A stretch of DNA of 64,000 nt. It comes from Ascidiaceihabitans donghaensis. Lineage in GTDB: Bacteria > Pseudomonadota > Alphaproteobacteria > Rhodobacterales > Rhodobacteraceae. Position 1 is the first letter of the stretch; each line of letters opens with the position of its first letter. The translations under genes were made by a program, and so were the position numbers. The stretch lies in the NCBI RefSeq assembly GCF_900302465.1, contig NZ_OMOR01000001.1, positions 930,001 to 994,000 on the forward strand. The letters are read 5' to 3'. This document shows positions 18,448 through 48,427 of the stretch, piece by piece. The notes under the pieces are model-generated. The model was not told where the DNA came from. It worked only from the letters and a program-made list of their open reading frames with translations, and did no database searches.

Positions 18448-19941
18448 TCAGAGGTCCATCAGCAACCTGCGCGGATCTTCCAGTGCTTCTTTGACACGCA
18501 CAAGGAAGGTGACGGCCCCTTTGCCATCCACGATGCGGTGATCGTAGCTAAGCGCGAGGTACATCATCGGGCGGATCACAACTTGTCCTTTGATCGCCAT
18601 AGGGCGATCCTGGATCTTGTGCATGCCCAAAATGCCCGATTGTGGGGGGTTCAGGATTGGGGAAGACATCAACGATCCGTACACACCACCGTTGGAAATG
18701 GTAAAGGTGCCACCTTGCATTTCCGCCATGGACAATTTGCCGTCACGCGCCCGCGCACCTTTTTCAGCAATAGCTTTTTCGATAGCGGCAAAGCTCATGG
18801 CGTCGGCGTCGCGGATCACCGGCACAACAAGACCGGACGGCGTACCGGCGGCGATGCCCATGTGCACGAAGTTTTTATATACCACATCGGTTCCGTCAAT
18901 CTCGGCGTTGACCTCTGGCACTTCTTTCAAAGCATGCACACAAGCCTTTGTGAAGAAGGACATAAACCCAAGTTTCACACCGTGCTTTTTCAAAAACAGG
19001 TCTTTGTATTCGTTGCGCAGCGCCATCACTTCGGTCATGTCGACCTCGTTGTATGTGGTCAGCATGGCAGCTGTGTTTTGGCTGTCTTTGAGACGCTTGG
19101 CGATGGTCTGACGCAAGCGGGTCATTTTGACGCGCTCTTCGCGGGATGCGTCATCTGCGGACACAGGTCCGCGCGGGGCCGCAACCGGTGCCGGGGCGGA
19201 GGCCGCAGCGGCGACGGCTTTTGCGACGTCATCCTTCATGACACGACCATCGCGGCCTGTACCTGTGACTTGATCGCGCGATACACCAGCTTCGGCCATA
19301 GCTTTCTTGGCTGACGGGGCATCTTCTACGTCTTTGGACGAAGAGGATCCCGTCGGCGCAGGGGCAGCAGCGGGTGCCGCCGCAACCGCACCAGAGGAAG
19401 ATATCACTGCCAATTTGGCTGTGGCATCCACTGTTGTGCCTTCTGGGGCAGAAATTTCTGCCAGAACGCCGGCAGCAGGTGCAGGAACTTCTACGCTGAC
19501 TTTGTCTGTTTCAAGTTCGCACAGCATTTCATCTTGCGCGACGCTGTCTCCGACGGCTTTGAACCATGTGGAAACTGTGGCTTCTGTGACGCTTTCTCCC
19601 AAAGTGGGAACCATAACATCTAAACTGTCGCCACCGGATGGCGCTGGCGCATCCGCTTGCGGTTTTTGTTCCGCGGCCGGGGCCGCGGGCGCGGCAGCTT
19701 CGCCACCTTCGGCGATTGTGGCCAGCAGCGCGTCAACGCCTACTGTTTCGCCTTCAGCAGCCACGATGTCGCCCATCGTGCCTGCTGCGGGGCTTGGCAC
19801 TTCGACGGTGACTTTGTCTGTTTCCAGTTCACACAGCATTTCATCGATCGCGACTGCATCACCCGGTTTCTTGAACCATGTGGCAACAGTGGCTTCCGTG
19901 ACGCTTTCGCCCAATGTGGGCACCCGTACTTCAGTTGTCAT
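18448..19941 (-). CDS. sucB: Dihydrolipoyllysine succinyltransferase (2-oxoglutarate dehydrogenase E2)
   Basis: The 497-residue E2 core passes the succinyl group to CoA. It has two lipoyl domains with lipoylated lysines in ELETDKV at Lys43 and Lys147, separated by Ala/Pro-rich linkers. A peripheral subunit-binding domain (about 213-243, [11 protein letters not shown] and [13 protein letters not shown]) and the catalytic domain follow, ending with [14 protein letters not shown] near residue 463 (catalytic His). Two lipoyl domains exceed the single one of E. coli SucB but are seen in this group. It follows sucA by 3 bases. Confidence 0.96.
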
Positions 19942-19944
19942 GGA

Positions 19945-22905
19945 TCAGTTTCCTTTGATGGTCAGCGCGTCGTCAACGAGGGCTGCTTGTTGTGCTTTGT
20001 GGATGGAGGCGAGGCCCGTGGCAGGGGATGCGGATGTCGCACGGCCCACGTAAACGGGACGCTTGTGTTTGGCGTCGATGCGTCCCAGAACCCATTCTAT
20101 GTTTGGTTCGATAAAGGTCCAAGCGCCCTGATTTTTGGGCTCTTCCTGGCACCAGACCACTTCGGCATTCTTGAACCGTTCCAATTCGCGTACGGCGGAT
20201 TGGGCAGGGAAGGGATAAAATTGTTCGACCCGCAGCAAGTAGATGTCGTCGATGCCGCGTGCGTCGCGTTCTTCCAGAAGGTCGTAGTACACCTTGCCAG
20301 AACACATAACGACGCGTTTGATCTTTTCGTCTGCGACCAGCGTGGTGTCGGAATTGCCGTGTTGTGCATCGTCCCACATCAGGCGGTGGAAGGACGATCC
20401 GGTGGTGAATTCGTCTGCTTTGCTGACGGCCAGCTTGTGACGCAACAGTGATTTAGGTGTCATAAGGATTAGCGGTTTGCGGAAGGACCGATGCAACTGA
20501 CGACGCAGAATGTGGAAATAGTTTGCGGGCGTTGTGCAATTGGCAACGATCCAGTTGTCTTGGCCACACATTTGCAAAAAACGTTCGAGGCGTGCGGACG
20601 AATGTTCCGGCCCTTGGCCTTCAAACCCATGTGGCAGCAACACGACCAAACCTGACATGCGCAACCATTTGCTTTCGCCCGAGCTGATAAATTGGTCGAA
20701 CATAATCTGCGCACCGTTGGCGAAATCCCCAAATTGCGCTTCCCAAAGGGTTAACGCATTCGGTTCCGCCATCGAGTATCCGTATTCAAACCCAAGCACG
20801 GCATATTCTGACAGCATTGAATCGATAACTTCGTAATGCGCCTGTCCCGCACGAACGTTGTTCAAAGGGTAATAGCGTTCTTCGGTGTTCTGGTTCACCA
20901 GTCCCGAATGGCGTTGCGAAAAGGTCCCACGGGTGGAATCCTGACCTGCCAACCGTACCGGGTATCCTTCGGTTAACAAGGATCCAAAGGCCAATGCCTC
21001 GCCGGTGGCCCAATCAAAGCCTTCGCCAGTTTCAAACATCTTTGCTTTGCTGTCCAGCAAACGCCCGACGGTTTTGTGCAGTGGGTAATCCGCGGGCGGT
21101 GTGGACAAAGCTTTGCCAACATCCGCCAAAGTTTCCGGATCAATCGCGGTGTTGCCACGCACATAATCGTCCTTGTTGCGGTCCAGATGTGACCACTTAC
21201 CATCCAGCCAGTCGGCTTTGTTCGGTTTGTAGTCTTTGCCCGCCTCGAATTCGGCGTTCATCTTGGCTTGGAACGCGGCTTTCATGTCCTCGATTTCACC
21301 TTCTGGGATCAGGCCATCACGCACCAGACGTTCTGTATAAAGGCTAAGCGACGTCTTTTGTGTTTTGATCTTTTTGTACATGATCGGGTTGGTGAACATG
21401 GGTTCGTCACCCTCGTTGTGCCCAAACCGACGGTAACAAATGATGTCGATAACAACATCTTTGCGGAATTTTTGACGGAACTCTGTGGCAACTTTGGCTG
21501 CATGTACCACTGCTTCTGGATCATCACCGTTCACATGGAAGATCGGGGCTTCGACAACCAGCGCGTTGTCCGTGGGGTAAGGGCTTGAGCGTGAAAAATG
21601 CGGTGCAGTTGTAAAGCCAATCTGGTTGTTCACAACGATATGCATGGTACCGCCGGCTTTGTGGCCTTTCAGACCGGACAGGGCGAAGCACTCTGCGACC
21701 ACGCCTTGGCCAGCAAAAGCTGCATCGCCATGTAACAATATTGGCATGACGGATGTGCGTTCGTCGTCTTTGTATTGGTCCTGTTTGGCACGAACTTTAC
21801 CCAAAACAACCGGGTTTACCGCTTCCAGGTGGCTGGGGTTGGCAGTCAAAGACAGGTGAACAGTGTTGTTGTCGAATTCACGGTCAGAGGAGGCGCCCAG
21901 ATGGTATTTCACATCTCCGGAGCCGTCTACGTCTTCAGGCTTGAAGCTGCCGCCTTGAAATTCGTTGAAAATGGCACGGTAGGGTTTCTGCATGACGTTT
22001 GCCAAAACAGACAAACGACCACGGTGCGGCATGCCGATCACGACATCGCGTACGCCAAGGCTGCCACCGCGCTTGATGATCTGTTCCATCGCGGGGATCA
22101 GGCTCTCGCCGCCATCAAGACCAAAGCGTTTGGTGCCCATGTATTTGACATGAAGGAACTTCTCAAAACCTTCGGCTTCAACCATCTTGTTCAGGATCGC
22201 TTTACGTCCCTCGCGGGTGAATTGAACCTCTTTGCCCAAACCTTCGATGCGTTCTTTGAGCCAACCCGCTTCTTCGGGGTTGGAGATGTGCATGTATTGC
22301 AGCGCAAAGGTGCCACAGTAGGTACGCTTCACGATGCTGAGGATTTCACGCATCGTGGCGACTTGAAGACCTAGAACGTTGTCGATGAAGATAGGACGAT
22401 CCATATCGGCTTCTGTGAAGCCATAAGATTTTGGGTCGAGTTCCGGGTGCGGTGTCTGATCGCGCATGCCCAAGGGGTCAAGGTCAGCGACCAGATGGCC
22501 TCGGATGCGGTACGCGCGAATGATCATCAATGCCCGAATGCTGTCCAGCACAGCACGTTTCACTTGGTCATCACTGATCGAGACACCTTTTTCGGTGGCC
22601 TTGTCCTTGATCTTTTTACCGGCATCTTTGACTTCGGCCTCCGGGGCCCATTCGCCCGTCAATGCAGCCGTCAGATCATCGGCTGGCATTGGCGGCCAGT
22701 CACCACGCGCCCAGCTGGGGCCTTGTGCTTCCCGTTTGACGCTGACATCGTCATCGCCCATGGCCTTGAAAAAGGCCTGCCAACTCTCATCCACTGCCGA
22801 CGGGTCGTTGGCGTAGCGCGCATACATCTGTTCAAGATATTCGGCGTTATGCCCCTGCATGAAGCTGGAGGCATGGAACTGGTCGTTGGCTGGATGGTCG
22901 GTCAT
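19945..22905 (-). CDS. sucA: 2-oxoglutarate dehydrogenase E1 component
   Basis: The 986-residue thiamine diphosphate enzyme decarboxylates 2-oxoglutarate and loads the lipoyl arm of E2. N-terminal FMQGHNAEYLEQMY is the family start. GMPHRGRLSVLANV (phosphate/ThDP region), HGDAAFAGQGVV and RRFGHNEGDEP follow, with DSTRGTFSQRHSG and a C-terminal transketolase-like domain ending in YVGRATSASPATGL. Length is typical for alphaproteobacteria. A hairpin separates it from sucD by 93 bases, which may allow separate dosing. Confidence 0.97.
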   Translation of the reverse strand: MTDHPANDQFHASSFMQGHNAEYLEQMYARYANDPSAVDESWQAFFKAMGDDDVSVKREAQGPSWARGDWPPMPADDLTAALTGEWAPEAEVKDAGKKIKDKATEKGVSISDDQVKRAVLDSIRALMIIRAYRIRGHLVADLDPLGMRDQTPHPELDPKSYGFTEADMDRPIFIDNVLGLQVATMREILSIVKRTYCGTFALQYMHISNPEEAGWLKERIEGLGKEVQFTREGRKAILNKMVEAEGFEKFLHVKYMGTKRFGLDGGESLIPAMEQIIKRGGSLGVRDVVIGMPHRGRLSVLANVMQKPYRAIFNEFQGGSFKPEDVDGSGDVKYHLGASSDREFDNNTVHLSLTANPSHLEAVNPVVLGKVRAKQDQYKDDERTSVMPILLHGDAAFAGQGVVAECFALSGLKGHKAGGTMHIVVNNQIGFTTAPHFSRSSPYPTDNALVVEAPIFHVNGDDPEAVVHAAKVATEFRQKFRKDVVIDIICYRRFGHNEGDEPMFTNPIMYKKIKTQKTSLSLYTERLVRDGLIPEGEIEDMKAAFQAKMNAEFEAGKDYKPNKADWLDGKWSHLDRNKDDYVRGNTAIDPETLADVGKALSTPPADYPLHKTVGRLLDSKAKMFETGEGFDWATGEALAFGSLLTEGYPVRLAGQDSTRGTFSQRHSGLVNQNTEERYYPLNNVRAGQAHYEVIDSMLSEYAVLGFEYGYSMAEPNALTLWEAQFGDFANGAQIMFDQFISSGESKWLRMSGLVVLLPHGFEGQGPEHSSARLERFLQMCGQDNWIVANCTTPANYFHILRRQLHRSFRKPLILMTPKSLLRHKLAVSKADEFTTGSSFHRLMWDDAQHGNSDTTLVADEKIKRVVMCSGKVYYDLLEERDARGIDDIYLLRVEQFYPFPAQSAVRELERFKNAEVVWCQEEPKNQGAWTFIEPNIEWVLGRIDAKHKRPVYVGRATSASPATGLASIHKAQQAALVDDALTIKGN

Positions 22906-22998: not shown

Positions 22999-23886
22999 TT
23001 AGCCTTTGGCGATGGCTTCTTGCACGGCCTCGCCCAGCGTAGCAGGGCTATCGGCAACTACGATACCAGCGGCTTTCATTGCTTCGATTTTGTCTTCCGC
23101 GCCGCCTTTGCCGCCTGCAACAATCGCGCCGGCGTGACCCATGCGGCGACCGGGAGGGGCCGTGCGGCCTGCGATGAAACCAGCTGTTGGTTTCCAACGG
23201 CCTTTCTTTTTCTCATCTGCGAGGAACTGGGCCGCTTCTTCTTCGGCAGAGCCGCCGATCTCACCGATCATGATAATGGACTGGGTTTCATCATCTGCCA
23301 GGAACATTTCCAAAACGTCGATGTGTTCGGTTCCCTTGATGGGGTCACCACCGATGCCCACAGCCGAAGACTGACCAAGGCCAAGATCGGTTGTCTGCTT
23401 CACGGCCTCATACGTCAAAGTGCCGGAGCGGGACACAACACCACAGGTCCCACGCTTGTGGATGTGGCCAGGCATGATACCAATTTTGCAGGCGTCGGGC
23501 GTGATTACGCCAGGGCAGTTCGGGCCGATGAGGCGCGACTTGGAGCCTTCCAGAGCGCGCTGTACTTTCATCATATCCAGAACCGGAATGCCTTCGGTGA
23601 TGCACACGATCAGCGGCATCTCGGCATCGATGGCTTCCAGAATGGAATCGGCTGCAAATGGCGGTGGTACATAGATCACGGACGCATTGGCTTCGGTCAC
23701 ATGCATCGCTTCATGGACAGAGTTGAACACGGGCAGGTCCAAATGGCTTTGGCCCCCTTTGCCCGGCGTTACACCGCCGACCATTTTCGTGCCGTACGCG
23801 ATGGCTTGTTCTGTGTGGAATGTCCCCTGAGAGCCGGTCAGGCCCTGACAGATGACTTTGGTGTTTTCGTCGATGAGAACTGCCAT
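22999..23886 (-). CDS. sucD: Succinyl-CoA synthetase alpha subunit
   Basis: The 295-residue subunit binds CoA and carries the phosphohistidine. The N-terminal [15 protein letters not shown] is the CoA-binding Rossmann start; [10 protein letters not shown] and [10 protein letters not shown] are family motifs; the phosphohistidine is in RMGHAGAIV near residue 248. It makes ATP (or GTP) from succinyl-CoA with SucC. Unusually for non-Rhodobacterales, sucC and sucD are separated by two envelope-protein genes. Confidence 0.97.
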
Positions 23887-24861: not shown

Positions 24862-26055
24862 TTAGCCTTTAACCGCTTTCACGATCTTTTGCGCACCATC
24901 TTTCAGATCATCTGCTGCGATGACATCCAGACCGGAGGAGTTGATGATCTCTTTGCCTTGCTCCACGTTTGTGCCTTCCAAACGCACGACTAAGGGCACT
25001 TGCAAGCCGACTTCCTTTACAGCGGCGACCACACCTTCTGCGATAACATCGCAGCGCATGATACCACCAAAGATGTTGACCAGAATGCCTTTGACGTTTG
25101 GATCAGAGGTGATGATCTTGAATGCCTCGGTGACTTTTTCTTTGGTTGCACCACCCCCTACGTCCAGGAAGTTCGCAGGTTCTGCGCCATACAGCTTGAT
25201 GATGTCCATGGTCGCCATAGCCAAGCCTGCGCCATTGACCATGCACCCGATTTCACCGTCCAAGGTGATATAGTTCAAGTCGTATTTGGATGCTTCAAGT
25301 TCTTTTGCATCTTCTTCCGTCTCATCACGCAATTCGTTGATGTCGGCGTGGCGATACAGGGCGTTGCCGTCAAAGGACACTTTGGCGTCGAGCACTTTCA
25401 GATCACCGCTGTCAGTGACGATCAGCGGGTTGATTTCCAGCATTTCCATGTCTTTTTCGTTGAAGGCTTTGAACAAGAGACCCATCAACGCGACACACTG
25501 CTTGACCTGTTTGCCTTCCAGTCCCAGCGCAAATGCGATGCGGCGGCCATGGAATGCTTGATACCCTGACGCCGGGTCAACGGAGAAAGACAAGATTTTT
25601 TCAGGTGTTTCAGCTGCCACTTCTTCGATGTCCATTCCGCCTTCGGTAGAGCACACAAAGGATACGCGAGATGTCTGGCGATCAACCAGCAATGCAAGGT
25701 ACAGTTCGGTTTCGATACCGGAGCCGTCTTCGATGTAGATGCGGTTGACTTGTTTGCCCGCCGGACCCGTCTGGTGCGTGACCAATGTGCGGCCCAACAT
25801 TTTTTTGGCTTCCTCGGCAGCTTCTTGAACGGACTTGGTCAAGCGCACACCGCCGGCTTCGCCTGCGTCAGCTTCCTTGAACTTGCCTTTGCCGCGTCCA
25901 CCGGCATGGATTTGGGCTTTGACCACCCACAGCGGGCCGTCCATCTCGCCTGCGGCGGATTTGGCGTCTTCGGCTTTCAAAACAACGCGACCGTCAGAGA
26001 CCGGCGCCCCGTAGCTGCGCAAAAGAGCTTTGGCTTGGTATTCGTGGATGTTCAT
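24862..26055 (-). CDS. sucC: Succinyl-CoA synthetase beta subunit
   Basis: The 397-residue ATP-grasp subunit starts [16 protein letters not shown] and carries [15 protein letters not shown] (nucleotide-binding loop), EINPLIV, and the CoA-ligase part with [15 protein letters not shown] and [15 protein letters not shown]. It pairs with SucD. It is the first gene after a 600-bp gap holding the best promoter of the region and the twin TGTGATCACA sites, so it heads the sucC-orf-orf-sucD-sucA-sucB transcription unit. Confidence 0.97.
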
Positions 26056-26132: not shown

Positions 26133-26162
26133 ATTATAGCATGTATTTCACACTGATTTGAA
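26133..26162 (-). promoter_or_regulatory. Likely sucC promoter
   Basis: On the minus strand a perfect TATAAT (26138 down to 26133) is preceded, 18 bases upstream, by TTCAAA (26162 to 26157), a 4-of-6 match to the -35 consensus. The start codon of sucC is 78 bases downstream of the -10. The twin palindromes lie just upstream, with centres about 46 and 67 bases before the predicted start site, a position typical for activators. Confidence 0.5.
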
Positions 26163-26165
26163 GCA

Positions 26166-26199
26166 TTTGTGATCACAATAAAAAATCGTGTGATCACAA
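26166..26199. promoter_or_regulatory. Twin palindromic operator upstream of sucC
   Basis: TTGTGATCACAA (26167-26178) and TGTGATCACA (26189-26198) are perfect palindromes with centres 21 bp apart, two helix turns. The same pair with the same spacing occurs upstream of sdhC at 33597-33627. The GT-N4-AC core resembles the (N)GT(N)xAC(N) pattern of FadR-type GntR regulators, but the protein is not known. Confidence 0.75.
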
Positions 26200-29021: not shown

Positions 29022-29343
29022 GTTGTTCAGCCTTTTGTCAAAAAGCGTCACCCGCAGTCATCAAGCCCTTGCCGGATATCCGGCGATGACCGGGCGGCCC
29101 CGGTTCCAATCGCGTATCGATTGCCCCTTCCGCAAAGGTTCAGCGGCTTTGCTGAAACGGCCCTCCCGGTGACATCCGATGACAGGACTTTGCGCCAACA
29201 GGGCTGAAACAATGGTTAACGCTGCGTCCGCTGGTTGTTTTCAATTTGATTTTTGCCGCAACGCAGCGAAAAGCGCTTGTACTTTTTGACAACGAATGTA
29301 CTTGTTCTGCGCAATATTATGTCCTTACCGAAAGCTGCTTCTC
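29022..29343. other. 322-bp divergent intergenic region upstream of mcl2
   Basis: This gap separates the small secreted protein from mcl2. It holds a perfect 14-bp palindrome GCCGGATATCCGGC (29071-29084), a TTCAGC/GCTGAA dyad near 29138-29156, a GTTAAC half site at 29215-29220 and a TTGACA at 29286-29291 that could be the -35 of mcl2 (no clear -10 at normal spacing). No coding sequence is supported. Confidence 0.45.
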
Positions 29344-30195
29344 ATGACCCTTGCACGTCCATTGCGTTCTGTTTTGTATATTCCTGCGTCGAAGCCTCGT
29401 GCTTTGGACAAGGCCCGCGGATTGCCCGTGGATGCGATCATTTTCGATCTGGAAGACGCAGTCAGCGTGGACGAAAAAGAGGCATCCCGCGCCATATTGG
29501 CCGAAGCTTTGGCCCAAGACGGCTACGGCGGTCGTATGAAAGTCATCCGGATCAATGCGTTCGACACGCCATGGGGCAAAGCCGATGCAGAGGCGGCCGC
29601 AAAAATGGGGGCAGATGCAATCTTGTTGCCAAAAGTATCCAGCCCCGCAGACCTTGATGCGCTGGCCGAGATCACAGGGGACATCCCGTTGTGGGCCATG
29701 ATGGAAACGCCCGCCGGTATGATTAACGCAGCTTCCATTGGGGCGCACCCAAAGTTGCAAGGCATGGTAATGGGCACCAACGACTTGGCGAAGGAATTGC
29801 AAACCCGCCACCGGGCCGACCGCTTGCCCCTTCAGGCTGGTTTGGGGCTTTGCGTGCTTGCCGCAAAAGCCAACGGGTGTGTGATCATCGATGGTGTGTA
29901 CAATGCGTTTAAAGACGATGATGGGTTGAAGGTTGAATGCGATCAGGGGCGCGATATGGGATTTGATGGCAAAACGCTGATCCATCCGGCGCAAGTGGAT
30001 GTGACAAACACCGCCTTTTCACCGTCTGATGCCGAAGTGGAACTGGCCCGTCGCCAAATTGAAGCCTTCAACGAAGTGGAGGCAACAGGGCAGGGCGTGG
30101 CTGTGGTGGATGGCAAGATCGTAGAAAACCTGCATGTTGCCACGGCCCGTGATACTCTGGCAAAGGTAGAGGCAATCGCGGCCTTGACCGCCTAA
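29344..30195 (+). CDS. mcl2: CoA ester lyase / (3S)-malyl-CoA thioesterase
   Basis: The 283-residue protein belongs to the HpcH/HpaI-citrate lyase beta family (SVLYIPASKPRALDKA, IFDLEDAVSVDEK, METPAGMINA, MGTNDLAKEL). Length and neighbours match Rhodobacter Mcl2, which hydrolyses malyl-CoA to malate and CoA in the ethylmalonyl-CoA pathway. The block mcl2-nnrU-DUF1737-mch-sdh repeats the R. sphaeroides order as I know it. A lyase role instead of thioesterase cannot be excluded from sequence alone. The ATG at 29344 is chosen over one at 29296. Confidence 0.82.
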   Translation: MTLARPLRSVLYIPASKPRALDKARGLPVDAIIFDLEDAVSVDEKEASRAILAEALAQDGYGGRMKVIRINAFDTPWGKADAEAAAKMGADAILLPKVSSPADLDALAEITGDIPLWAMMETPAGMINAASIGAHPKLQGMVMGTNDLAKELQTRHRADRLPLQAGLGLCVLAAKANGCVIIDGVYNAFKDDDGLKVECDQGRDMGFDGKTLIHPAQVDVTNTAFSPSDAEVELARRQIEAFNEVEATGQGVAVVDGKIVENLHVATARDTLAKVEAIAALTA

Positions 30196-30216
30196 CCCCA
30201 TCTTCGGAGTTCCAAT

Positions 30217-30762
30217 ATGCTATTGATAATCCTTGGTCTGATCCTTTGGACTGGCGCACATTACTGGAAACGACTTGCGCCGGATCACCGCGCGGGATTT
30301 GGCGACAAAGGCAAATTGGTTGTTACAGTGTCCAGCTTTGCAGCGATTGCGTTGATGGTTGTGGGCTACCGCGCCGCCGATTTCATCCATGTCTGGAGCC
30401 CGCCCGAGTTTTTTCGCCATATCAACAATCTGCTGATGCTGATTGCGTTTTTTGTGTTCGGCATGTCCGCCACAACAGGGCGTTTGAAAGGGTATTGGCG
30501 CCATCCCATGCTAATTTCGGTCAAGATCTGGGCGATCGCCCATTTGCTGGTGAACGGTGACCTGGCAGCAATCATTTTGTTCGGCGGCATGTTGGCATGG
30601 GCCGTGGGGTCCGTGATTTTGATCAACAAGGCGGAACCGAACTGGACACGTCCAGAACCCGGGCCTGCATCAAAAGACGTATTGCTGGTTGTGATCACGC
30701 TTGTGACGTTTGGCGTTGCGGCTGGTGTGCACGTCTGGCTCGGCGTGAACCCGTTCGGATAA
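30217..30762 (+). CDS. NnrU-family membrane protein
   Basis: The 181-residue protein has five to six membrane helices and the NnrU pattern: GLILWTGAHYWKRLAP, IALMVVGYRAADFIHVW, RHPMLISVKIWAIAHLLVNGDLA and a C-terminal helix. NnrU was first linked to nitric oxide metabolism; homologues include the isomerase-type 15-cis-zeta-carotene proteins with heme. Here it sits inside the mcl2-mch unit, so its link to that pathway is positional only. It starts 21 bases after mcl2. Confidence 0.87.
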   Translation: MLLIILGLILWTGAHYWKRLAPDHRAGFGDKGKLVVTVSSFAAIALMVVGYRAADFIHVWSPPEFFRHINNLLMLIAFFVFGMSATTGRLKGYWRHPMLISVKIWAIAHLLVNGDLAAIILFGGMLAWAVGSVILINKAEPNWTRPEPGPASKDVLLVVITLVTFGVAAGVHVWLGVNPFG

Positions 30763-30766
30763 GCAC

Positions 30767-30970
30767 ATGAAACTCTATCGATTTTTGTCCGAAGAGGACA
30801 CATCCGCCTTTTGCCATAAAGTAACCGATGCCTTGAACAAAGGCTGGGAACTGCATGGATCGCCGACCCAAACATGGGACCACGCAGCAGGTGTAATGCG
30901 CTGCGGGCAAGCCGTGGTGAAAGAAGCAGATGGCACCTACACATCTGATACCAAACTGGGACAACACTAA
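30767..30970 (+). CDS. DUF1737 small protein
   Basis: The 67-residue soluble protein (MKLYRFLSEEDTSAFCHKV, then LNKGWELHGSPT) matches DUF1737, small proteins with a short beta-hairpin-helix of unknown function. It lies 4 bases after nnrU and 2 bases before mch, so the four genes form an operon. Confidence 0.8.
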   Translation: MKLYRFLSEEDTSAFCHKVTDALNKGWELHGSPTQTWDHAAGVMRCGQAVVKEADGTYTSDTKLGQH

Positions 30971-30972
30971 AG

Positions 30973-32037
30973 ATGAGCGTGACAACCACCATGACCAAAC
31001 CGCAAGCAGTCAAGACCAACGCCGGCCGTTTCTTTGAAGACTACCGTGTCGGAATGGTTATGGATCACGCCGTACCACGCACCGTTTCAGGTGGAGAACG
31101 CGCACTGTATCACGCACTGTATCCAGCACGTCATGCGCTGTATTCCTCGGATCAGTTTGCGCAGAACTGCGGCCTGCCTTTTAGCCCTTTGGATGATATG
31201 GCAGCCTTCCATGTGGTTTTTGGCAAGACGGTTCCAGATGTTTCACTAAATGCCGTTGCCAATTTGGGCTATGCGCAGGGACGTTGGTTGCTGCCTGTTT
31301 ATGCCGGGGACACGTTGCGTTCGCGGTCCGAAGTTATTGGGGTCAAGCAAAACTCGAACGGTAAAACTGGTGTTGTCTATGTGCGCACCACTGGTCTGAA
31401 CCAACGCGATGAAACGGTTATGGAATATGTGCGGTGGGTTATGGTGCGCAAACGCGATGCCGATGCGCCGGCGCCTGAACCTGTGGTTCCTGATTTGCCC
31501 AAAGCGCTGACTGTGTCTGATCTTGTTGTGCCAAGTGGTTTGGATTTTTCCAACTATGATTTTGACCAAGCCGGTGAAGCCCACCGTTGGGGCGACTATC
31601 AGGTTGGTGAGCAAATCGATCACGTAGATGGGGTGACCATCGAAGAAGCCGAACATATGATGGCAACGCGTTTGTGGCAGAACACAGCCAAAGTGCATTT
31701 CGATACATCAGCGCGGCCCGACGGCAGCAGACTGATCTATGGGGGGCATGTCATTTCCATGGCCCGCGCCTTGTCGTTCAATGGTTTGGCCAATGCGCAA
31801 ATGGTTGTCGGTTTGAACGCAGGTGCCCACGCCAATCCGTGTCTTGCAGGTGATACAGTTCGGGCTTGGTCCGAAGTGCTGGACAAAGCCGAAACAGCGG
31901 CCCCGGGTGTGGGTGCTTTGCGGTTGCGTTTGGTGGCCACGAAAGGTGGTGCCCCCTTTAATTTGCGTACAGACGATGGCAAATACGCCCCTGAAGTCTT
32001 GTTGGACTTGGATTACTGGGTTTTAATTCCTGTCTGA
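30973..32037 (+). CDS. mch: Mesaconyl-CoA hydratase (MaoC-like, double hotdog)
   Basis: The 354-residue enzyme has two MaoC-like hotdog halves. N-terminal half: FFEDYRVGMVMDHAVPRTVSGGE, LPFSPLDDMAAFHVVFG. C-terminal half: FDQAGEAHRWGDYQVGEQIDHVDG, YGGHVISMARALSFNGLANAQ. It matches the Mch of the ethylmalonyl-CoA pathway, which converts mesaconyl-C1-CoA and beta-methylmalyl-CoA. Gene context (mcl2 upstream, sdh downstream) supports this. The start may be the ATG at 30973 or the one eight codons... downstream at MTKPQ (30999-31001 region); length is close to the family's either way. Confidence 0.88.
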   Translation: MSVTTTMTKPQAVKTNAGRFFEDYRVGMVMDHAVPRTVSGGERALYHALYPARHALYSSDQFAQNCGLPFSPLDDMAAFHVVFGKTVPDVSLNAVANLGYAQGRWLLPVYAGDTLRSRSEVIGVKQNSNGKTGVVYVRTTGLNQRDETVMEYVRWVMVRKRDADAPAPEPVVPDLPKALTVSDLVVPSGLDFSNYDFDQAGEAHRWGDYQVGEQIDHVDGVTIEEAEHMMATRLWQNTAKVHFDTSARPDGSRLIYGGHVISMARALSFNGLANAQMVVGLNAGAHANPCLAGDTVRAWSEVLDKAETAAPGVGALRLRLVATKGGAPFNLRTDDGKYAPEVLLDLDYWVLIPV

Positions 32038-32905: not shown

Positions 32906-33595
32906 ATGTTGCGTTGCATTGCCCTTGTTTCTTCAATCGTTCCGTTTCGGAGCTTTGCTTGCGAACTGGCACTGGTGTTGGCTGTTGATGTGTCGGGATC
33001 GGTTGACCCGACAGAGTATCGCATTCAGATGAATGGGTTGGCTGCGGGCCTTCGGGACGGAATTGTTATGGATGCGCTTGTTTCCCAACAGGCGCATGTC
33101 ACCTTGATCCAGTGGTCTGGATCGGGACGGCAGCGTCAGACCATGCCCTGGACCGCGCTGCGACAAGAACAAGACGTGTTGGAGTTTGCGCAAGCTGTGG
33201 AACAAGATCCTCGCGTGTGGCGCAACTTTTCCACTGCTATTGGCGAGGCTTTGGCCCTGTCGCGCGATGTGCTGCAGGATGTGCCCCAGTGTGCGCGAAA
33301 AGTGATCGACGTTTCGGGCGATGGTGTGTCCAACGAGGGTGTTTTGCCCACCTCTTTGCGCACTGTGATCCGCCATGAATCCATAACGGTAAATGCGATA
33401 GCCATCGAGACGGATAGTACGGATTTAACCGCGTACTTTTATGAGAACCTTATCATGGGGCCGCAAGCGTTTGTGGTCACAGCTGCGGGCTTTGATGACT
33501 ATCCTGAGCAAATCAGGCGGAAATTACAGCGGGAAACCACCAAGCAAGTGAGCACTTTGGACGAGACTCAGGTTCAATTATTAGAAAATCGTTAA
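32906..33595 (+). CDS. DUF1194 von Willebrand A-like secreted protein
   Basis: The 229-residue protein has a signal peptide (residues 1-18) and a vWA-like fold with the metal-binding DVSGSVD (MIDAS, DxSxS) and later DVSGDGVSNEG. The family is DUF1194. Such proteins usually bind protein partners through a metal ion in the periplasm; the partner is unknown. It ends just before the twin palindromes upstream of sdhC, so the sdh operator begins 1-2 bases after its stop codon. Confidence 0.87.
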   Translation: MLRCIALVSSIVPFRSFACELALVLAVDVSGSVDPTEYRIQMNGLAAGLRDGIVMDALVSQQAHVTLIQWSGSGRQRQTMPWTALRQEQDVLEFAQAVEQDPRVWRNFSTAIGEALALSRDVLQDVPQCARKVIDVSGDGVSNEGVLPTSLRTVIRHESITVNAIAIETDSTDLTAYFYENLIMGPQAFVVTAAGFDDYPEQIRRKLQRETTKQVSTLDETQVQLLENR

Positions 33596-33596
33596 A

Positions 33597-33627
33597 TGTG
33601 ATCACGCGCCGCAAAACTGTGATCACA
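33597..33627. promoter_or_regulatory. Twin palindromic operator upstream of the sdh operon
   Basis: TGTGATCACG (33597-33606, one mismatch at the end) and TGTGATCACA (33618-33627, perfect) have centres 21 bp apart. This is the same pair and spacing as at sucC (26166-26199). The site lies 117 to 147 bases upstream of the sdhC start. No clear -35/-10 is seen; TAATAG at 33645-33650 is a weak -10 candidate. Confidence 0.75.
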
Positions 33628-33743: not shown

Positions 33744-34127
33744 ATGGCCGACGTGAACCGGGGCAGCCGCCCGCTTTCGCCGCATTTGACGATCTACCGC
33801 CCACAACTGACATCCATGACGTCAATCCTGACGCGGATCACAGGCAACGCATTGCTGATTTCATCGTTGTTGGTGATTTGGTGGTTTTTAGCTGCAGCAA
33901 CATCGCCTGAATATTACGCCGTGGCTAATGGTGTTCTGACAAGCTGGTTTGGCGATATTGTCATGACCTTGTCCGTTCTTGGGCTGTGGTATCATACACT
34001 TGCGGGTGTGCGACATCTGATCTGGGACAACGGCATCGGCCTTGATATTCCGACAGCGGAAAAGTTGGGGTACGCCTGCATAGGTGGTTCCGTTCTTTTG
34101 ACGTTGATCACCATAATTATAGTTTAG
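33744..34127 (+). CDS. sdhC: Succinate dehydrogenase cytochrome b556 subunit
   Basis: The 127-residue membrane anchor has three helices and the family signature RPLSPHLTIYRPQLTS with SILTRITG (quinone-site Ser/Arg). The heme-ligand His lies in LWYHTLAGVRHLIWD. It anchors SdhAB and passes electrons to ubiquinone. ATG at 33744 with AAAGGA upstream; an earlier ATG in frame at 33687 is unlikely. First gene of the sdh operon. Confidence 0.95.
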   Translation: MADVNRGSRPLSPHLTIYRPQLTSMTSILTRITGNALLISSLLVIWWFLAAATSPEYYAVANGVLTSWFGDIVMTLSVLGLWYHTLAGVRHLIWDNGIGLDIPTAEKLGYACIGGSVLLTLITIIIV

Positions 34128-34138
34128 GGGGCGCTGAC

Positions 34139-34510
34139 ATGGCATTTTTGACCGACCGCAAACGCGCTGTGGGCATGGGGTCCGCGAAAACGGGCACAGA
34201 ACATTTTTGGGTGATGAAGGTCAGCGCATTCGGTTTGCTGCTTCTTATTCCCCTGTTTGTCTTCACATTCGGCCCAATGCTTGGCCAGGATTATGAAACG
34301 GTCACGGCGTACTTCGCCCGTCCGTTTCCTGCGATCGTTGCAGGGCTGACCATCGCCGTGACAATGATGCACTTCAAAAATGGTGTGCAAACCATGATCG
34401 AGGACTACGTACATGGTACGGCGCAAAAAATAGCGATCCTTGCAATGATTAGCCTTAGCTACGCTGCCGCCGCGACAGGCCTTTTCGCCGTTGCACGGCT
34501 GGCGCTTTAA
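34139..34510 (+). CDS. sdhD: Succinate dehydrogenase hydrophobic anchor subunit
   Basis: The 123-residue protein has three helices (about 30-48, 60-78, 95-118). IAVTMMHFKNGVQTMIEDYVHG holds the likely heme-ligand His and the Asp-Tyr of the quinone site. With SdhC it binds heme b and ubiquinone. It lies 11 bases after sdhC. Confidence 0.93.
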   Translation: MAFLTDRKRAVGMGSAKTGTEHFWVMKVSAFGLLLLIPLFVFTFGPMLGQDYETVTAYFARPFPAIVAGLTIAVTMMHFKNGVQTMIEDYVHGTAQKIAILAMISLSYAAAATGLFAVARLAL

Positions 34511-34528: not shown

Positions 34529-36337
34529 ATGGCTGCTTACGAATACGAAACGCATGAATATGACGTGGTTGTGGTCGGTGCCGGTGGCGCTGGGTTGCGC
34601 GCGACACTTGGTATGGCCGAGCAAGGGCTGCGCACAGCCTGCGTCACCAAAGTTTTCCCGACACGGTCCCACACGGTTGCCGCCCAAGGTGGGATTGCCG
34701 CGTCACTGTCCAACATGGGCCCCGACAACTGGCAGTGGCACATGTATGACACCGTGAAAGGGTCTGATTGGTTGGGCGACACTGACGCGATGGAATATCT
34801 CGCCCGCGAAGCCCCCAAGGCGGTTTATGAGCTTGAGCACTACGGCGTTCCATTCTCGCGCACCGAAGAGGGTAAAATCTATCAGCGCCCCTTTGGAGGT
34901 CACACCACCGAATTTGGTGAAGGCCCTGCCGTGCAGCGTACATGCGCCGCCGCAGACCGCACAGGCCATGCCATTTTGCACACGCTGTATGGGCAATCCC
35001 TGAAGAACAATGCTGAGTTCTACATTGAATATTTCGCAATCGACTTGATCATGTCCGATGATGGTGTGTGTCAAGGCGTCCTGTGCTGGAAACTTGATGA
35101 TGGCACGCTACATTTGTTCAGCGCCAAAATGGTTGTTTTGGCCACTGGCGGTTATGGCCGTGCGTACTTCTCGGCGACGTCTGCACACACCTGCACAGGC
35201 GACGGCGGCGGTATGACCGCACGCGCGGGCCTTCCATTGCAAGACATGGAATTCGTGCAATTTCACCCAACCGGCATTTACGGCGCTGGCTGTTTGATCA
35301 CGGAAGGGGCGCGCGGCGAAGGCGGGTATCTGACAAACTCTGAAGGTGAGCGTTTCATGGAACGCTACGCGCCACAGTACAAAGACCTCGCACCGCGTGA
35401 CTATGTGAGCCGGTGCATGACAATGGAAATCCGCGAGGGGCGCGGCGTTGGGTCCGGGGGGGATCACATCCACCTCAACCTCAACCACTTGCCCAAAGAA
35501 ACGCTGGACCTGCGTCTGCCGGGTATTTCCGAAAGTGCGCGTGTGTTTGCCGGTGTTGACCTGACCAAGGAACCGATCCCAGTGCTGCCAACGGTGCACT
35601 ACAACATGGGTGGCATTCCAACGAACTATTGGGGCGAGGTGCTGGCACCGACGGCGGACGAACCAGATCGTGTGTCGCCGGGCCTTATGGCTGTGGGCGA
35701 AGCGGGCTGTGCGTCGGTGCACGGTGCAAACCGCCTTGGATCAAACTCGCTTATCGATCTTGTGGTGTTCGGTCGCGCGGCGGCGATCCGCGCTGGCAAG
35801 GTTGTGGATCGCGACAGTGCAATTCCAACGCCGAACCAGAAGTCCGTGGATGCCGCGATCGAACGCTTCGACAACACACGCTACGCCAAAGGCCACACGC
35901 CCACTGCGGAACTGCGTCTGGAAATGCAGCAAACCATGCAAAAAGACGCCGCTGTGTTCCGTGCCAAAGACACGCTGGCCGAAGGTAAAGCGAAGATGGA
36001 AGACGTCGCGGCCAAATGGTCGGACGTGGGCGTCACGGATCGGTCCTTGGTCTGGAACTCCGATTTGATGGAAACATTGGAATTGGCGAATTTGCTACCC
36101 AATGCCGTAGCCACGATTGTGGGGGCGGAAGCACGTACAGAAAGCCGCGGGGCGCATGCCCACGAAGACTTCCCCGAACGTGACGACGAAAACTGGCGCA
36201 AGCACTCCTTGATCTGGTTCCAAGGCGAAAACAAAGCCTCTTTGGGCTACCGCGGCGTGCATGTGGCGCCTTTGACCAGCCACAATGACGGTGGGATCGA
36301 TCCCAAGAAAATCGCCCCGAAAGTGCGCACATTCTAA
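34529..36337 (+). CDS. sdhA: Succinate dehydrogenase flavoprotein subunit
   Basis: The 602-residue subunit oxidises succinate to fumarate. FAD binding: [13 protein letters not shown] (13-25); covalent FAD His48 in [11 protein letters not shown]; active-site [21 protein letters not shown] and [13 protein letters not shown]; Arg/His of the substrate site in [17 protein letters not shown]. Length is normal. The stop codon shares a base with the next gene's ATG (TAATG). Confidence 0.98.
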
Positions 36338-36679: not shown

Positions 36680-37459
36680 ATGGTTCAACTGACACTTCCC
36701 AAGAACTCTCGGATGACCACGGGCAAGACGTGGCCAAAACCCGAAGGCGCAACGAACCTTCGCAAATTCAGCATTTACCGCTGGAATCCGGACGATGGTA
36801 AAAACCCTTCGTTGGATACGTATTGGGTCGATATGGACACCTGCGGACCAATGGTTCTGGATGCGCTGATCAAGATCAAGAACGAGATTGACCCGACCTT
36901 GACGTTCCGCCGGTCCTGCCGCGAAGGCATTTGTGGATCCTGCGCGATGAACATCGACGGGATCAATACATTGGCCTGCATCTACGGCATGGATGAAATC
37001 AAAGGGGATGTGCGCATTTATCCGTTGCCGCACATGTCCGTTGTGCGTGACCTTATCCCTGACTTGACGCATTTCTATGCCCAGCATGCATCTATCATGC
37101 CGTGGCTGGAAACCAAGACCAACCGCCCGGCCAAAGAATGGCGCCAGTCCATTGAAGATCGCAAGAAGCTGGATGGTTTGTATGAATGTGTGATGTGCGC
37201 ATCTTGTTCAACATCATGCCCAAGCTATTGGTGGAATGGCGATCGGTATCTGGGACCAGCAGCGTTGTTGCATGCGTATCGCTGGATCATCGACAGCCGT
37301 GATGAAGCAACGGGTGAGCGTCTGGACGAACTGGAAGATCCGTTCAAATTGTACCGCTGCCACACGATCATGAACTGTGCAAAAACGTGCCCCAAAGGTC
37401 TGAACCCGGCGGAGGCCATCGCAAACATCAAGAAAATGATGGTAGAGCGCCGCGTTTGA
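36680..37459 (+). CDS. sdhB: Succinate dehydrogenase iron-sulfur subunit
   Basis: The 259-residue subunit carries three Fe-S clusters. [2Fe-2S]: Cys80, Cys85, Cys88 and Cys100 ([13 protein letters not shown]). [4Fe-4S] and [3Fe-4S]: [16 protein letters not shown] and [17 protein letters not shown]. It links SdhA to SdhCD. AAAGGAGA precedes the start. The next small gene overlaps its stop. Confidence 0.98.
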
Positions 37460-41899: not shown

Positions 41900-43867
41900 C
41901 TATTGGGCTGCGACGGCCTTTGGATCAGCCAAAGTGACAATATCCATCATGATTGTATTCAGCTCAAAGTCTTTTGGCGTGTACACACGGGCAACCCCCA
42001 TAGTGCGCAGTCGCTGTGCGTCGTCATCGGGAATAATTCCACCGACAATTACCGGAATATCGCCCAAACCTGCGTCACGCATTTTCACCATCAAATCTTC
42101 GACAAGAGGAATATGGCTACCTGATAAAATTGAAAGGCCCACAACATGTGCGTCGTCCGATTTTGCCGCAGCGACAATTTCGTCTGGCGTTAAACGAATG
42201 CCTTCATAGGTGATGTCCATTCCGCAATCTCGGGCGCGAACTGCGATTTGTTCCGCACCATTTGAATGGCCGTCCAAACCGGGTTTGCCCACCAAGAATT
42301 TTAGGCGACGTCCCAGTTTGTCGCTGACCAGATCAACGGCTTCACGTAGATGATCCAAGCCTTCGGTCATGTTGGATTGGCCCGCTGCTACGCCTGTCGG
42401 GCCACGGTATTCGCCATGAACAGCGCGCATTTGCGCGGCCCATTCGCCCGTTGTAACGCCCGCTTTTGCCGCAGCGATGGAAGGTTCCATAACGTTGCGC
42501 CCTTCGCTGGCTGCCGCACGTAGATCGGCAAGTGCAGCGTCGACCGCGGCTTGATCGCGTCCGCCGCGCCATTCATTCAGACGGTCAATCTGTTCTTGTT
42601 CGACGGCTGGATCAACCACCATAATGCCGCCGTCTTCGCTCATCAGTGGGGAAGGTTCGCCGCTGGTGTATTTATTGACACCCACCACAATCGTTTCACC
42701 GGCCTCAATTCGATTGAGGCGCGCAGCATTTGAACCAACCAATTGCGCTTTCATATAGTCAATCGCGTCGATGGCGCCGCCCATCGAATCCAAATTGGCC
42801 AGTTCAGACCGTGCACCGTCTTTGAGTTCTTCAACTTTGGCGTCCACGGCAGGGTTGCCATCAAATAGATCGTCAAATTCTAAAAGGTCGGTTTCAAATG
42901 CCATAATCTGCTGCATACGCATGGACCACTGTTGATCCCATGGGCGTGGCAACCCAAGGGCTTCATTCCATGCAGGCAATTGGACGGCGCGGGCACGTGC
43001 CTTTTTGGACAGGGTGACTGCCAGCATTTCGATCAATATGCGGTATACGTTGTTTTCGGGCTGCTGTTCGGTCAACCCAAGCGAATTCACTTGCACGCCG
43101 TAGCGAAAACGGCGGTATTTGGCATCGATGACGCCGTAGCGTTTTTCGCAAATCTCGTCCCACAGATCGACAAAGGCGCGCATTTTGCACATCTCGGTCA
43201 CAAACCGAATGCCGGCATTTACGAAAAACGAAATACGGCCTACCAGTGTTGGGAAATCTTCTGCGGGTACGCGTGGGCGCAATTCATCGAGAACGGCAGT
43301 GGCGGTGGCCAGCGCAAATGCCAATTCCTGTTCTGGTGTCGCGCCTGCTTCTTGCAGGTGATACGAACACACGTTCATAGGGTTCCATTTCGGGACATTC
43401 GTGTAGCAATACTCAGCCACATCCGCGATCATTTTCAAAGATGGTTTTGGCGGGCAGATGTATGTGCCGCGGCTTAGGTATTCTTTGATCAAATCGTTTT
43501 GAACAGTACCTTGAAGACCCGAAACATCGGCGCCTTGTTCCTCAGCGACCGCAATATACAAAGCCAACAACCATGGAGCCGTTGCGTTTATCGTCATGGA
43601 CGTGTTCATTTGTTCCAGAGGAATGTCCTGAAACAATGCCCGCATGTCGCCAAGGTGCGACACGGGAACGCCCACTTTACCAACTTCGCCCCGTGAAAGA
43701 ACGTGGTCGCTGTCATATCCGGTCTGCGTGGGCAGATCGAAAGCCACCGACAGGCCGGTTTGGCCTTTGGCCAAATTCGAGCGGTACAACAGGTTCGAGG
43801 CTTTGGCAGTTGAATGGCCTGCGTAGGTTCGGATCAACCAGGGGCGGTCTTTTTTAACATCTGTCAT
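41900..43867 (-). CDS. ecm: Ethylmalonyl-CoA mutase (MeaA-type)
   Basis: The 655-residue B12-dependent mutase converts ethylmalonyl-CoA to methylsuccinyl-CoA in the ethylmalonyl-CoA pathway. The catalytic barrel begins with RPWLIRTYAGHSTAKASN and LSVAFDLPTQTGYDSD; the cobalamin-binding domain at the C-terminus has LDGHSNGAEQ (DxHxxG, B12-ligand His) and LSGSHIPLVED. Single-chain length and the MeaA-type start distinguish it from MutB-type methylmalonyl-CoA mutase. The ATG at 43867 has GAGG upstream. The pathway partner ccr lies 2 kb away. Confidence 0.93.
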   Translation of the reverse strand: MTDVKKDRPWLIRTYAGHSTAKASNLLYRSNLAKGQTGLSVAFDLPTQTGYDSDHVLSRGEVGKVGVPVSHLGDMRALFQDIPLEQMNTSMTINATAPWLLALYIAVAEEQGADVSGLQGTVQNDLIKEYLSRGTYICPPKPSLKMIADVAEYCYTNVPKWNPMNVCSYHLQEAGATPEQELAFALATATAVLDELRPRVPAEDFPTLVGRISFFVNAGIRFVTEMCKMRAFVDLWDEICEKRYGVIDAKYRRFRYGVQVNSLGLTEQQPENNVYRILIEMLAVTLSKKARARAVQLPAWNEALGLPRPWDQQWSMRMQQIMAFETDLLEFDDLFDGNPAVDAKVEELKDGARSELANLDSMGGAIDAIDYMKAQLVGSNAARLNRIEAGETIVVGVNKYTSGEPSPLMSEDGGIMVVDPAVEQEQIDRLNEWRGGRDQAAVDAALADLRAAASEGRNVMEPSIAAAKAGVTTGEWAAQMRAVHGEYRGPTGVAAGQSNMTEGLDHLREAVDLVSDKLGRRLKFLVGKPGLDGHSNGAEQIAVRARDCGMDITYEGIRLTPDEIVAAAKSDDAHVVGLSILSGSHIPLVEDLMVKMRDAGLGDIPVIVGGIIPDDDAQRLRTMGVARVYTPKDFELNTIMMDIVTLADPKAVAAQ

Positions 43868-43938
43868 AGGGGCCTCATGAATCGGAGAAAGCAATATTCT
43901 TGCGCTTGGGTTGAGATATAAGAAACTTTAGGCAAGTG

Positions 43939-44325
43939 TCAATTCGCTGCGTTGCGGCGTAACCACTTTGACGCCACGGAGATAAGCAACGCCCATCCCA
44001 AAAGGCTTTGGCCAAGGCCGGACAGCGTTCCAGCACTGGCAAAACCGTAAAGCCTGACCACGTCGACGACGCCAGGCGGTGCCTTTACTACGATCTTTGC
44101 CGGCAACCCGTCGATCAAGATCCTGTAATACGCATAATAAACCTGTGGTGATAGCCAAACAAACGCCCACAGGGCGACGCAGGCGCTGACGAAATGCCAA
44201 AAGGGCTTCAGGCGCAGGCGAAACACCGCAAAAATCAAAAACGCCGACAAAGCCAGTGACACAACAGCCAGCCCGATTTGGCCGATGGTGGTCAGGGTGA
44301 AAAATGAATCTTGCGTATACATCAT
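43939..44325 (-). CDS. Integral membrane protein, function unknown
   Basis: The 128-residue protein starts MMYTQDSFFTLTTIGQIG and has four likely helices: GLAVVSLALSAFLIFAVF, FWHFVSACVALWAFVWLS, a middle one near IVVKAPPGVVDVV (weak) and LSGLGQSLLGWALLISVAS. AGGA precedes the tandem ATG codons. It sits between ecm and the acyltransferase gene, divergent from the latter. I recognise no family. Confidence 0.7.
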   Translation of the reverse strand: MMYTQDSFFTLTTIGQIGLAVVSLALSAFLIFAVFRLRLKPFWHFVSACVALWAFVWLSPQVYYAYYRILIDGLPAKIVVKAPPGVVDVVRLYGFASAGTLSGLGQSLLGWALLISVASKWLRRNAAN

Positions 44326-44396
44326 GTTCCTGCATTTTTGCGAACCGGTGGATGGTCGATGCGTATTTATGTTTACCAAAGGCCGTATGCCTGTAA

Positions 44397-45779
44397 ATGT
44401 CATTGGTGATGTTTCAGACCGTAGAAATACCTATCTGGCTATTTGTGCTGATCGTGTTTTTCGCGACGGTGACGTTTGCGTCGCATTTTCTGTTTCCTTC
44501 TGTGCGGTGGTTTTTTCGCCGACGTTTGGAAAAGGCCGTCAAACGCCTGAACAAGCGGCTGACCCGTCCTATTGAGCCATTCAAGCTGGCGCGGCGGTAT
44601 GACATGATCCAGCGCATTATTTATGATCCCCAGGTGACGCAAGCGATTGTGGAATACGCCAAGGAACATGATGTCCCTGAAAATGTAGGCTTTGAAAAAG
44701 CCCGCAAATATGCGCGTGAAATTGTGCCCAGTTTTAGTGCCTTCACCTATTTTGGTCTTGGAATTCGTATCGCGCGTTGGATCAGCAATGGCCTTTACGA
44801 CGTGCGCACAGCGGATGGGCATGATGAACGGTTGGCTGGTTTGCCCAAGGATGCCACCGTCATTTTTATCATGAACCATCGCAGCAATATGGATTATTTG
44901 CTTGTGACTTACCTTGCCGCGCAAGCTTCGGCTTTGTCCTATGCAGTTGGCGAATGGGCGCGGGTTTGGCCGCTGACCCGCTTGATCAAATCATTGGGCG
45001 CCTACTTTATCCGGCGCAAATCGCGAGGCGCACTTTATCGCAAGGTCTTGGCGCGCTATGTGCAGATGGCCACAGAAGGCGGGGTGACGCAGGCAATTTT
45101 CCCCGAAGGTGGGTTAACCCTGAATGGCAAACTGCGCCCGCCCAAGTTGGGTCTGTTGACCTATGTGCTGGATGCCTACGACCCTGAAGGTCGCGACATT
45201 CTATTTGTCCCTGTGGCGATCAACTATGATCGTGTTCTGGAAGACCGGGTGTTGATTGCAGCGGACCAACGGGGGGACCGGCGGTTCGGTGGGAAAGTGT
45301 CGGTGGTTTTCAAATTTGTTTTGCGCAAGGTCTGGCTGCGGTTAACAGGCCGTTTCTTGCGATTTGGGCAAGCTGCAGTGGCTTTCGGAGAACCGGTGTC
45401 GGTCAAAACCTACGGCAGCAAGCCGAACCCTGAAAAACTGGCACAGGATTTGATGGTCGAAATTTCAAGGATTATGCCTGTGATGGAAATTTCGTTGATG
45501 TGCCGCGTGTTTTTGATGGCAGATGGCCCTTTGAACCAAAAGGCACTGGAAGTTGCGGTGAAAAACGTGATGGCGCAGTGTAATGGCCCTGCGCCGATTT
45601 TGCACAATGACAAGATTGAAGATCTTGTCACACGTGCCTGCGCCAACCTGGGTCAACGCAACATCATTGCCCAAGATCAGGGCAGATGGTCTTTGAATTC
45701 CGATGCGAAAGACGTTGCAGCATTTTATTCCAATTCGATCGCGCACTATTTCGACGAAGAGGATGCAGTTGCAGAATAA
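44397..45779 (+). CDS. Membrane acyltransferase, glycerol-phosphate type
   Basis: The 460-residue protein has an N-terminal helix (about 10-28), a helical region, then the PlsBC acyltransferase motifs NHRSNMD (160-166, HX4D variant) and IFPEGG (234-239). The length and C-terminal extension resemble glycerol-3-phosphate acyltransferases of the PlsB-like group rather than the short PlsC type. The precise acceptor is uncertain. It precedes ccr by 135 bases in the same direction. A start four codons later (44409) is possible. Confidence 0.8.
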   Translation: MSLVMFQTVEIPIWLFVLIVFFATVTFASHFLFPSVRWFFRRRLEKAVKRLNKRLTRPIEPFKLARRYDMIQRIIYDPQVTQAIVEYAKEHDVPENVGFEKARKYAREIVPSFSAFTYFGLGIRIARWISNGLYDVRTADGHDERLAGLPKDATVIFIMNHRSNMDYLLVTYLAAQASALSYAVGEWARVWPLTRLIKSLGAYFIRRKSRGALYRKVLARYVQMATEGGVTQAIFPEGGLTLNGKLRPPKLGLLTYVLDAYDPEGRDILFVPVAINYDRVLEDRVLIAADQRGDRRFGGKVSVVFKFVLRKVWLRLTGRFLRFGQAAVAFGEPVSVKTYGSKPNPEKLAQDLMVEISRIMPVMEISLMCRVFLMADGPLNQKALEVAVKNVMAQCNGPAPILHNDKIEDLVTRACANLGQRNIIAQDQGRWSLNSDAKDVAAFYSNSIAHYFDEEDAVAE

Positions 45780-45793
45780 TTTTCTGCGACTGC
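45765..45793 (+). other. 12-bp hairpin at the acyltransferase stop codon
   Basis: GCAGTTGCAGAA (45765-45776) pairs with TTCTGCGACTGC (45782-45793), one T-G pair, loop TAATT. It covers the stop codon of the acyltransferase gene. No T-run follows, so it may be a weak terminator or processing site before ccr. Confidence 0.45.
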
Positions 45794-45868
45794 GGGGTCA
45801 TAAAATTACAATAATGACCTCCGTAGGGTTGCAATGTTACTCGGTGGGCCATATTCCACATTTGAACG

Positions 45869-45888
45869 GCAATGCGATTCTGCATTGC
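45869..45888. promoter_or_regulatory. Inverted repeat GCAATGC-N6-GCATTGC upstream of ccr
   Basis: Perfect 7-bp arms at 45869-45875 and 45882-45888 lie 26 bases before the ccr start codon. A regulator of ccr is known in Methylobacterium (CcrR, TetR family); whether a related protein binds here is unknown. Position close to the start codon fits repressor or leader control. Confidence 0.45.
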
Positions 45889-45914
45889 GGCAAACAGGTA
45901 AAGTGGAGGTTCCC

Positions 45915-47410: not shown

Positions 47411-47617
47411 ATGAGAAGTGACTGGATTTTAGACGTTCTGACGGACTTGAAAACCTTTGCACGTGCAAATGAGCTTATGGCACTTGCCGAACAGCTTGAT
47501 GACACAGCAATCGTTGCCATGGCCGAGATCGCTGCCAAAAATGAAAGGCTACACGGCCGACGCCATGAAAACGATTACGCAGTTGGAAACCATATTGGAG
47601 GAACTGGAGCAAGCTGA
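47411..47617 (+). CDS. Small protein upstream of luxR, function unknown
   Basis: The 68-residue protein starts MRSDWILDVLTDLKTFARAN and continues LMALAEQLDDTAIVAMAEIAA. AAAGGTG lies at a good distance before the ATG. I recall similar small ORFs before luxR genes of Roseobacter-group bacteria. Its 3' part overlaps the luxR start region in another frame (up to 77 bases), so its last residues may not be under separate selection, and the two genes may be translationally coupled. Confidence 0.6.
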   Translation: MRSDWILDVLTDLKTFARANELMALAEQLDDTAIVAMAEIAAKNERLHGRRHENDYAVGNHIGGTGAS

Positions 47618-48287: not shown

Positions 48288-48427
48288 CCCGACACCCCTA
48301 AGAATCGCCCGGACCCCCCCGTTGCGCAATCAATTAATCTATCGTACGGGTTGAATATTACACATTAACACACGCATAGGTAATACTTGCTTCAGGTCAG
48401 TGACCGAATTGGACAAGGAGAGCCCCA

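Follow-up and report, generated by a model that had tools for sequence, protein, structure and literature searches.

The window, by which we mean the whole 64,000-nucleotide stretch of Ascidiaceihabitans donghaensis DNA that was analyzed, carries two sets of TCA-cycle genes, each preceded by a closely spaced pair of palindromes that we refer to as a twin. Behind sucC, on the same strand, follow sucD, sucA and sucB; the twin sits between sucC and mdh, the latter also named by family search. A second twin lies ahead of sdhC, and a third pair is found elsewhere in the genome. Features are listed in order of coordinates.

18448 to 19941, minus strand: sucB, dihydrolipoyllysine succinyltransferase (family search); probably part of one transcript, going by gene order and strand
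19945 to 22905, minus strand: sucA, 2-oxoglutarate dehydrogenase E1 (family search)
22999 to 23886, minus strand: sucD, succinyl-CoA synthetase alpha subunit (family search)
24862 to 26055, minus strand: sucC, succinyl-CoA synthetase beta subunit (family search); first gene behind the twin
26133 to 26138, minus strand: candidate -10 box of sucC, TATAAT; offset not conserved in relatives
26168 to 26177, no strand: predicted proximal sucC operator, TGTGATCACA; promoter-proximal copy
26189 to 26198, no strand: predicted distal sucC operator, TGTGATCACA; 21 bp from the proximal copy
33597 to 33606, no strand: predicted distal sdhC operator, TGTGATCACG; one mismatch against TGTGATCACA
33618 to 33627, no strand: predicted proximal sdhC operator, TGTGATCACA; perfect, 21 bp from the distal copy
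33744 to 34127, plus strand: sdhC, succinate dehydrogenase cytochrome b556 subunit (family search)
34139 to 34510, plus strand: sdhD (assigned by position)
34529 to 36337, plus strand: sdhA, succinate dehydrogenase flavoprotein (family search)
36680 to 37459, plus strand: sdhB (assigned by position and sequence)
G000:C1:3357265-3357939, outside the window, minus strand: akgR (P0001); third GTGATCAC pair ahead of the gene

An earlier note on this DNA had described two perfect palindromes 21 bp apart ahead of sucC, and these are present as described, the spacing being counted from start to start. Its statement that the same twin recurs at sdhC holds for the spacing and for the distance of 7.4 kb between the two twins, but not to the letter, as one base differs in the distal sdhC copy. 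A weaker palindrome, TGTGGTCACA, occurs at 33472-33481, inside the preceding gene and some 125 bp before the sdh twin. A lone TGTGATCACG at 30690-30699 falls inside an NnrU-like frame, with a hydratase-like gene that we take to be mch beginning about 270 bp further on. By eye, genes around the sdh operon (29296-32037 and 41900-47195) resemble those of the ethylmalonyl-CoA pathway, comprising a lyase, a hydratase, a mutase and a crotonyl-CoA reductase, while adjoining frames at 47457-49066 resemble a LuxR-type regulator and a LuxI-type autoinducer synthase.

Single sites are only modestly unusual in the window, where TGTGATCACA with at most one mismatch occurs at 6 places against 2.5 expected and 4 of 100 shuffles scored as high. 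Across the 4.08-Mb genome the perfect 10-mer has 11 copies: two at sucC, one at sdhC, one at a regulator gene and the other seven inside long open frames. Unlike the single 10-mer, pairing of GTGATCAC is far beyond chance. Two copies separated by 3 to 30 nucleotides occur three times in 4.08 Mb, with about 0.03 occurrences expected for uniform bases and none found with the reversed control, and the three lie upstream of sucC, of sdhC and, at very short distance, of the gene for P0001.

This third pair ends 8 nt before the start codon of P0001, a protein of 224 residues with FCD (E 3.6e-17) and GntR (E 6.5e-14) domains, both above cut-off, whose nearest solved relative is McbR (4p9f, E 1e-19). 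The genome holds 14 GntR genes, and only that of P0001 is preceded by such a pair. AkgR is reportedly RSP_0981 of Rhodobacter sphaeroides, according to work by Imam in 2015. P0001 is 74% identical to a protein of Cereibacter genome G046, whose best named relative is from Cereibacter ovatus (94% identity), and the gene order in G046 (sucA-sucD-sucC-mdh-...-sdhCDAB-akgR) is the one that the RSP numbers require. Because of this match, and because the G046 gene occupies the position of RSP_0981, P0001 is by homology and synteny an ortholog of R. sphaeroides AkgR. Passages of PMC4344238 present RSP_0981 as a GntR regulator with predicted control of sucCD (RSP_0967-6), sdh (RSP_0974-6) and the alpha-ketoglutarate dehydrogenase genes (RSP_0965-62), and passages of PMC6365646 give GTGATCAC among the sites of AkgR and term the protein a transcriptional activator. 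The system described here resembles that regulon in its regulator, its sites and its targets: P0001 has GntR and FCD domains, GTGATCAC stands at its putative targets, and these comprise sucCD, sdh and the alpha-ketoglutarate dehydrogenase genes. The earlier note had guessed at a GntR protein, correctly, and its proposal that sucC and sdh share a dedicated regulator gains strong support from a third pair in front of a GntR/FCD gene orthologous to RSP_0981. One difference from G046 is that akgR in our genome is remote from suc and sdh and is preceded by an operator pair of its own, whereas in G046 it is beside sdh and lacks an operator.

The association between regulator and pair extends across the family. 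In a sample of 150 genomes, one per genus and including our own, exact GTGATCAC pairs (3 to 30 bp apart, anywhere in the genome) were found in 135, and the reversed control gave 0 in all. Orthologs of P0001 were likewise present in 135 of the 150, at no less than 63% identity and 265 bits, the next matches stopping at 45% and 168 bits. Both were present in 133 genomes and both absent in 13, with two genomes having AkgR only and two the pair only (Fisher p 6e-15, uncorrected for relatedness). The AkgR-only genomes are G035, which has a sucC twin with two mismatches, and G139, which gave no sucC match; the pair-only genomes are G018 and G105, whose assemblies are broken up into 210 and 320 contigs. 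An order-level sample of 195 genomes, all of which belong to the same family, had the pair in 193 and the control once, in G228. At the level of the class (289 genomes), a pair at 20-21 bp was present in 5 of 5 family members versus 2 of 284 others, G440 and G483, and in G483 it lies inside an open frame. The G440 pair, from another family of the class (L264:992-1028), has a spacing of 21 bp and stands ahead of a GntR-like gene, with a TonB-receptor-like gene on its opposite side (both named by eye). To account for relatedness we used a quick tree of SucC and MDH with 81 rows, in which 10 of 78 inner branches were firmly supported; on it, AkgR requires at least 8 changes and the twin at least 5. 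Using the firm branches, five independent pairs differ in AkgR, and the twin differs in the same direction in about three, in the opposite direction in none and not at all in about two. The direction is consistent and the relatedness-aware test (3 to 0, median p 0.25) is not significant.

Spacing is nearly invariant among relatives. SucC was matched in 145 of the 150 genomes, and upstream regions, not selected by presence of the twin, were taken from 80 of the 144 genomes other than our own, making 81 with the window; these were every even-numbered genome with a match except G118, all odd-numbered AkgR-negative genomes, and the hand-picked G001, G035 and G123. Allowing at most two mismatches and searching spacings of 10 to 60 bp, we found a sucC twin in 66 of 67 AkgR-positive genomes, 58 at 21 bp and 8 at 20 bp, with none at any other spacing in that range. 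The one genome without it is G123, where the best match to SucC reaches no more than 56% identity. AkgR-negative genomes had the twin in 2 of 14 cases (G018 and G105) and were without it in 12. The gene sdhC was found in 56 of the 81 regions, with a twin of at most two mismatches in 48 of 52 AkgR-positive genomes (41 at 21 bp, 7 at 20 bp) and in one of four AkgR-negative ones; the remaining AkgR-positive genomes had a weaker pair at 20-21 bp (G008, G035) or none (G094, G136). Shuffled versions of the regions gave twins in 0 of 1620 (sucC) and 0 of 1120 (sdhC). The Cereibacter genome G046 has 21-bp twins at both genes. The question raised in the earlier note, whether the twin is lost or its spacing drifts freely in relatives, is thus answered in favor of conservation. 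A distance of 20-21 bp corresponds to two helical turns and would place two dimers on one face of the helix.

Promoter geometry shows no such regularity in these data. The sucC twin begins 103-196 bp before the start codon among sampled relatives. The earlier note had put the twin centers near -46 and -67; TATAAT is indeed present, and the centers would fall near -46.5 and -67.5 by arithmetic if transcription starts 7 nt behind it, but this geometry depends on that one hexamer, whose offset is not conserved in relatives. Across 68 sucC and 50 sdhC twins, neither TATAAT nor TTGACA gave a strong peak at a fixed distance, and offset 39, which corresponds to the earlier geometry, was not among the six best. 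The nearest signals were, at sucC, TATAAT-like and TTGACA-like means of 2.47 of 6 at offset 56, and at sdhC, a TTGACA-like 5 of 6 in 11 of 50 twins at offset 68. With no strong peak, a sigma-70 promoter at a fixed distance from the twin was dropped as a model.

The arrangement at akgR itself is of another kind. In our genome the two operators are 13 bp apart, and the upstream one of the two touches a TTGAC as well. Taking the best-matching 30 of 135 orthologs, a palindrome with at most one mismatch precedes akgR in 29, compared with 0 of 30 for an in-gene control stretch; in 27 of these 30, TTGAC starts 17 bp before the palindrome, and in 27 of these 30 the first in-frame start codon is 7-9 nt behind it (L023:1501-1523, L058-L087). 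With its start codon so close behind the operator, the akgR mRNA may have little or no leader. A -10 box placed at a 17-bp spacer would share the final bases of the palindrome, and repressors typically bind in such a position, suggesting putative autorepression. As a rule for the whole family, autoregulation was rejected: against 29 of those best-matching 30 of 135 orthologs, the site was present in only 14 of 81 loci in the set nearest the Cereibacter protein, and was absent from G046. In none of 45 named loci longer than 20 kb did an own site coincide with an exact twin less than 10 kb away: 28 loci had neither feature, 10 had just the twin and 7 just the own site.

Additional pairs are uncommon at the characteristic spacing. 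Besides our own, 18 genomes have three or more pairs, and in the 14 of these inspected most extra pairs are irregularly spaced, those at 20-21 bp beyond two per genome being at fumC in G037 and as a third site at sucC in G122. In G037 (G037:C16, L263:1500-1654), a GTGATCAC twin at 21 bp stands ahead of fumC, encoding class II fumarase, the next step of the TCA cycle; fumC of our own genome lacks a site, the best candidate within 300 bp having 4 mismatches. In G122 (C8:374318-374367), three GTGATCAC sites in 21-bp steps form a triple operator ahead of sucC.

Similar operators are known from other members of the GntR family. FadR-subfamily operators are palindromes with GT and AC boxes, as here, and P0001 has the FCD domain of that subfamily; according to passages of PMC4494728, the gap between GT and AC is usually 3 nt, and 2 in some groups, whereas here it is 4 nt, outside that consensus. 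PS417_07240, a GntR-like regulator of deoxyribonate oxidation in Pseudomonas simiae, likewise has GTGATCAC conserved in front of the gene that encodes it, at -47 to -40 (PMC6365646). Passages of that paper put it at 32% identity to AkgR, too low for an AkgR ortholog, and, unlike the AkgR twins, it serves a different pathway with a single site described.

We propose that the twins at the suc and sdh operons are very probably operators of AkgR, a GntR-family protein carrying an FCD domain. Upstream of the promoter, two AkgR dimers would occupy adjacent sites on the same helix face and bring in RNA polymerase, so that alpha-ketoglutarate dehydrogenase, succinyl-CoA synthetase and succinate dehydrogenase would be raised together. 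At its own gene, AkgR would bind an operator (two in this genome) overlapping the expected -10 place and so limit its own level. With only slightly more confidence than doubt, we further speculate that this constitutes a phase-locked module across the family: dimers would have to sit two helical turns apart to activate, the operator over the -10 place of akgR would bring self-repression, and the lower TCA cycle would be held at a set level by a unit that may be copied (fumC in G037) or extended (the sucC triple in G122).

Many GntR/FCD proteins are repressors, and an alternative hypothesis is that AkgR binds the twins to repress both operons until a ligand lifts repression. The repressor-like place of the akgR operator is consistent with this, and a twin could cover a transcription start at sucC or sdhC. 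However, the sucC twins lie well upstream of the start codon, unlike the akgR site, and passages of PMC6365646 class AkgR of R. sphaeroides as an activator, making repression at suc and sdh unlikely. It is less likely still that the main reader of the twins is another GntR/FCD paralog rather than P0001. Paralogs at 38-45% identity are widespread among genomes of the family, the distant Pseudomonas regulator is proposed to use GTGATCAC (passages of PMC6365646), and the pair in G440 fronts a GntR-like gene in another family; yet no other GntR gene in our genome has such a pair in front, and the twin tracks P0001 orthologs, with several genomes negative for both AkgR and twin (G049 and G100 among them) matching weaker GntR relatives.

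The remaining alternative is that the palindromes arose by chance or serve a CRP/FNR-like protein that recognizes similar half sites. TGTGA...TCACA resembles the half sites of CRP, and the single 10-mer is frequent enough in the genome, mostly within open frames, to lend chance some credit. In CRP sites, however, the half sites are 6 bp apart, whereas here they are joined, and the pair counts set against the reversed control and the shuffled promoter regions are such that we reject both readings as extremely improbable.

Regulator, site and targets are already in print, and this genome is a further instance. The literature searched gave no description of a double site with fixed spacing, nor of an operator covering the -10 region of akgR; the primary AkgR paper was outside that search and may describe them. 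The 10-mer as a literature term returned no paper on the subject by title. The analysis traces a regulator known from reports on R. sphaeroides through 135 of the 150 genera sampled from the family and links a highly conserved promoter element with its putative protein, though the two are megabases apart in this genome. The contrast between upstream twins of fixed spacing and a site over the -10 region would offer cheap, sharp tests of how a single GntR/FCD protein might act as both activator and repressor.
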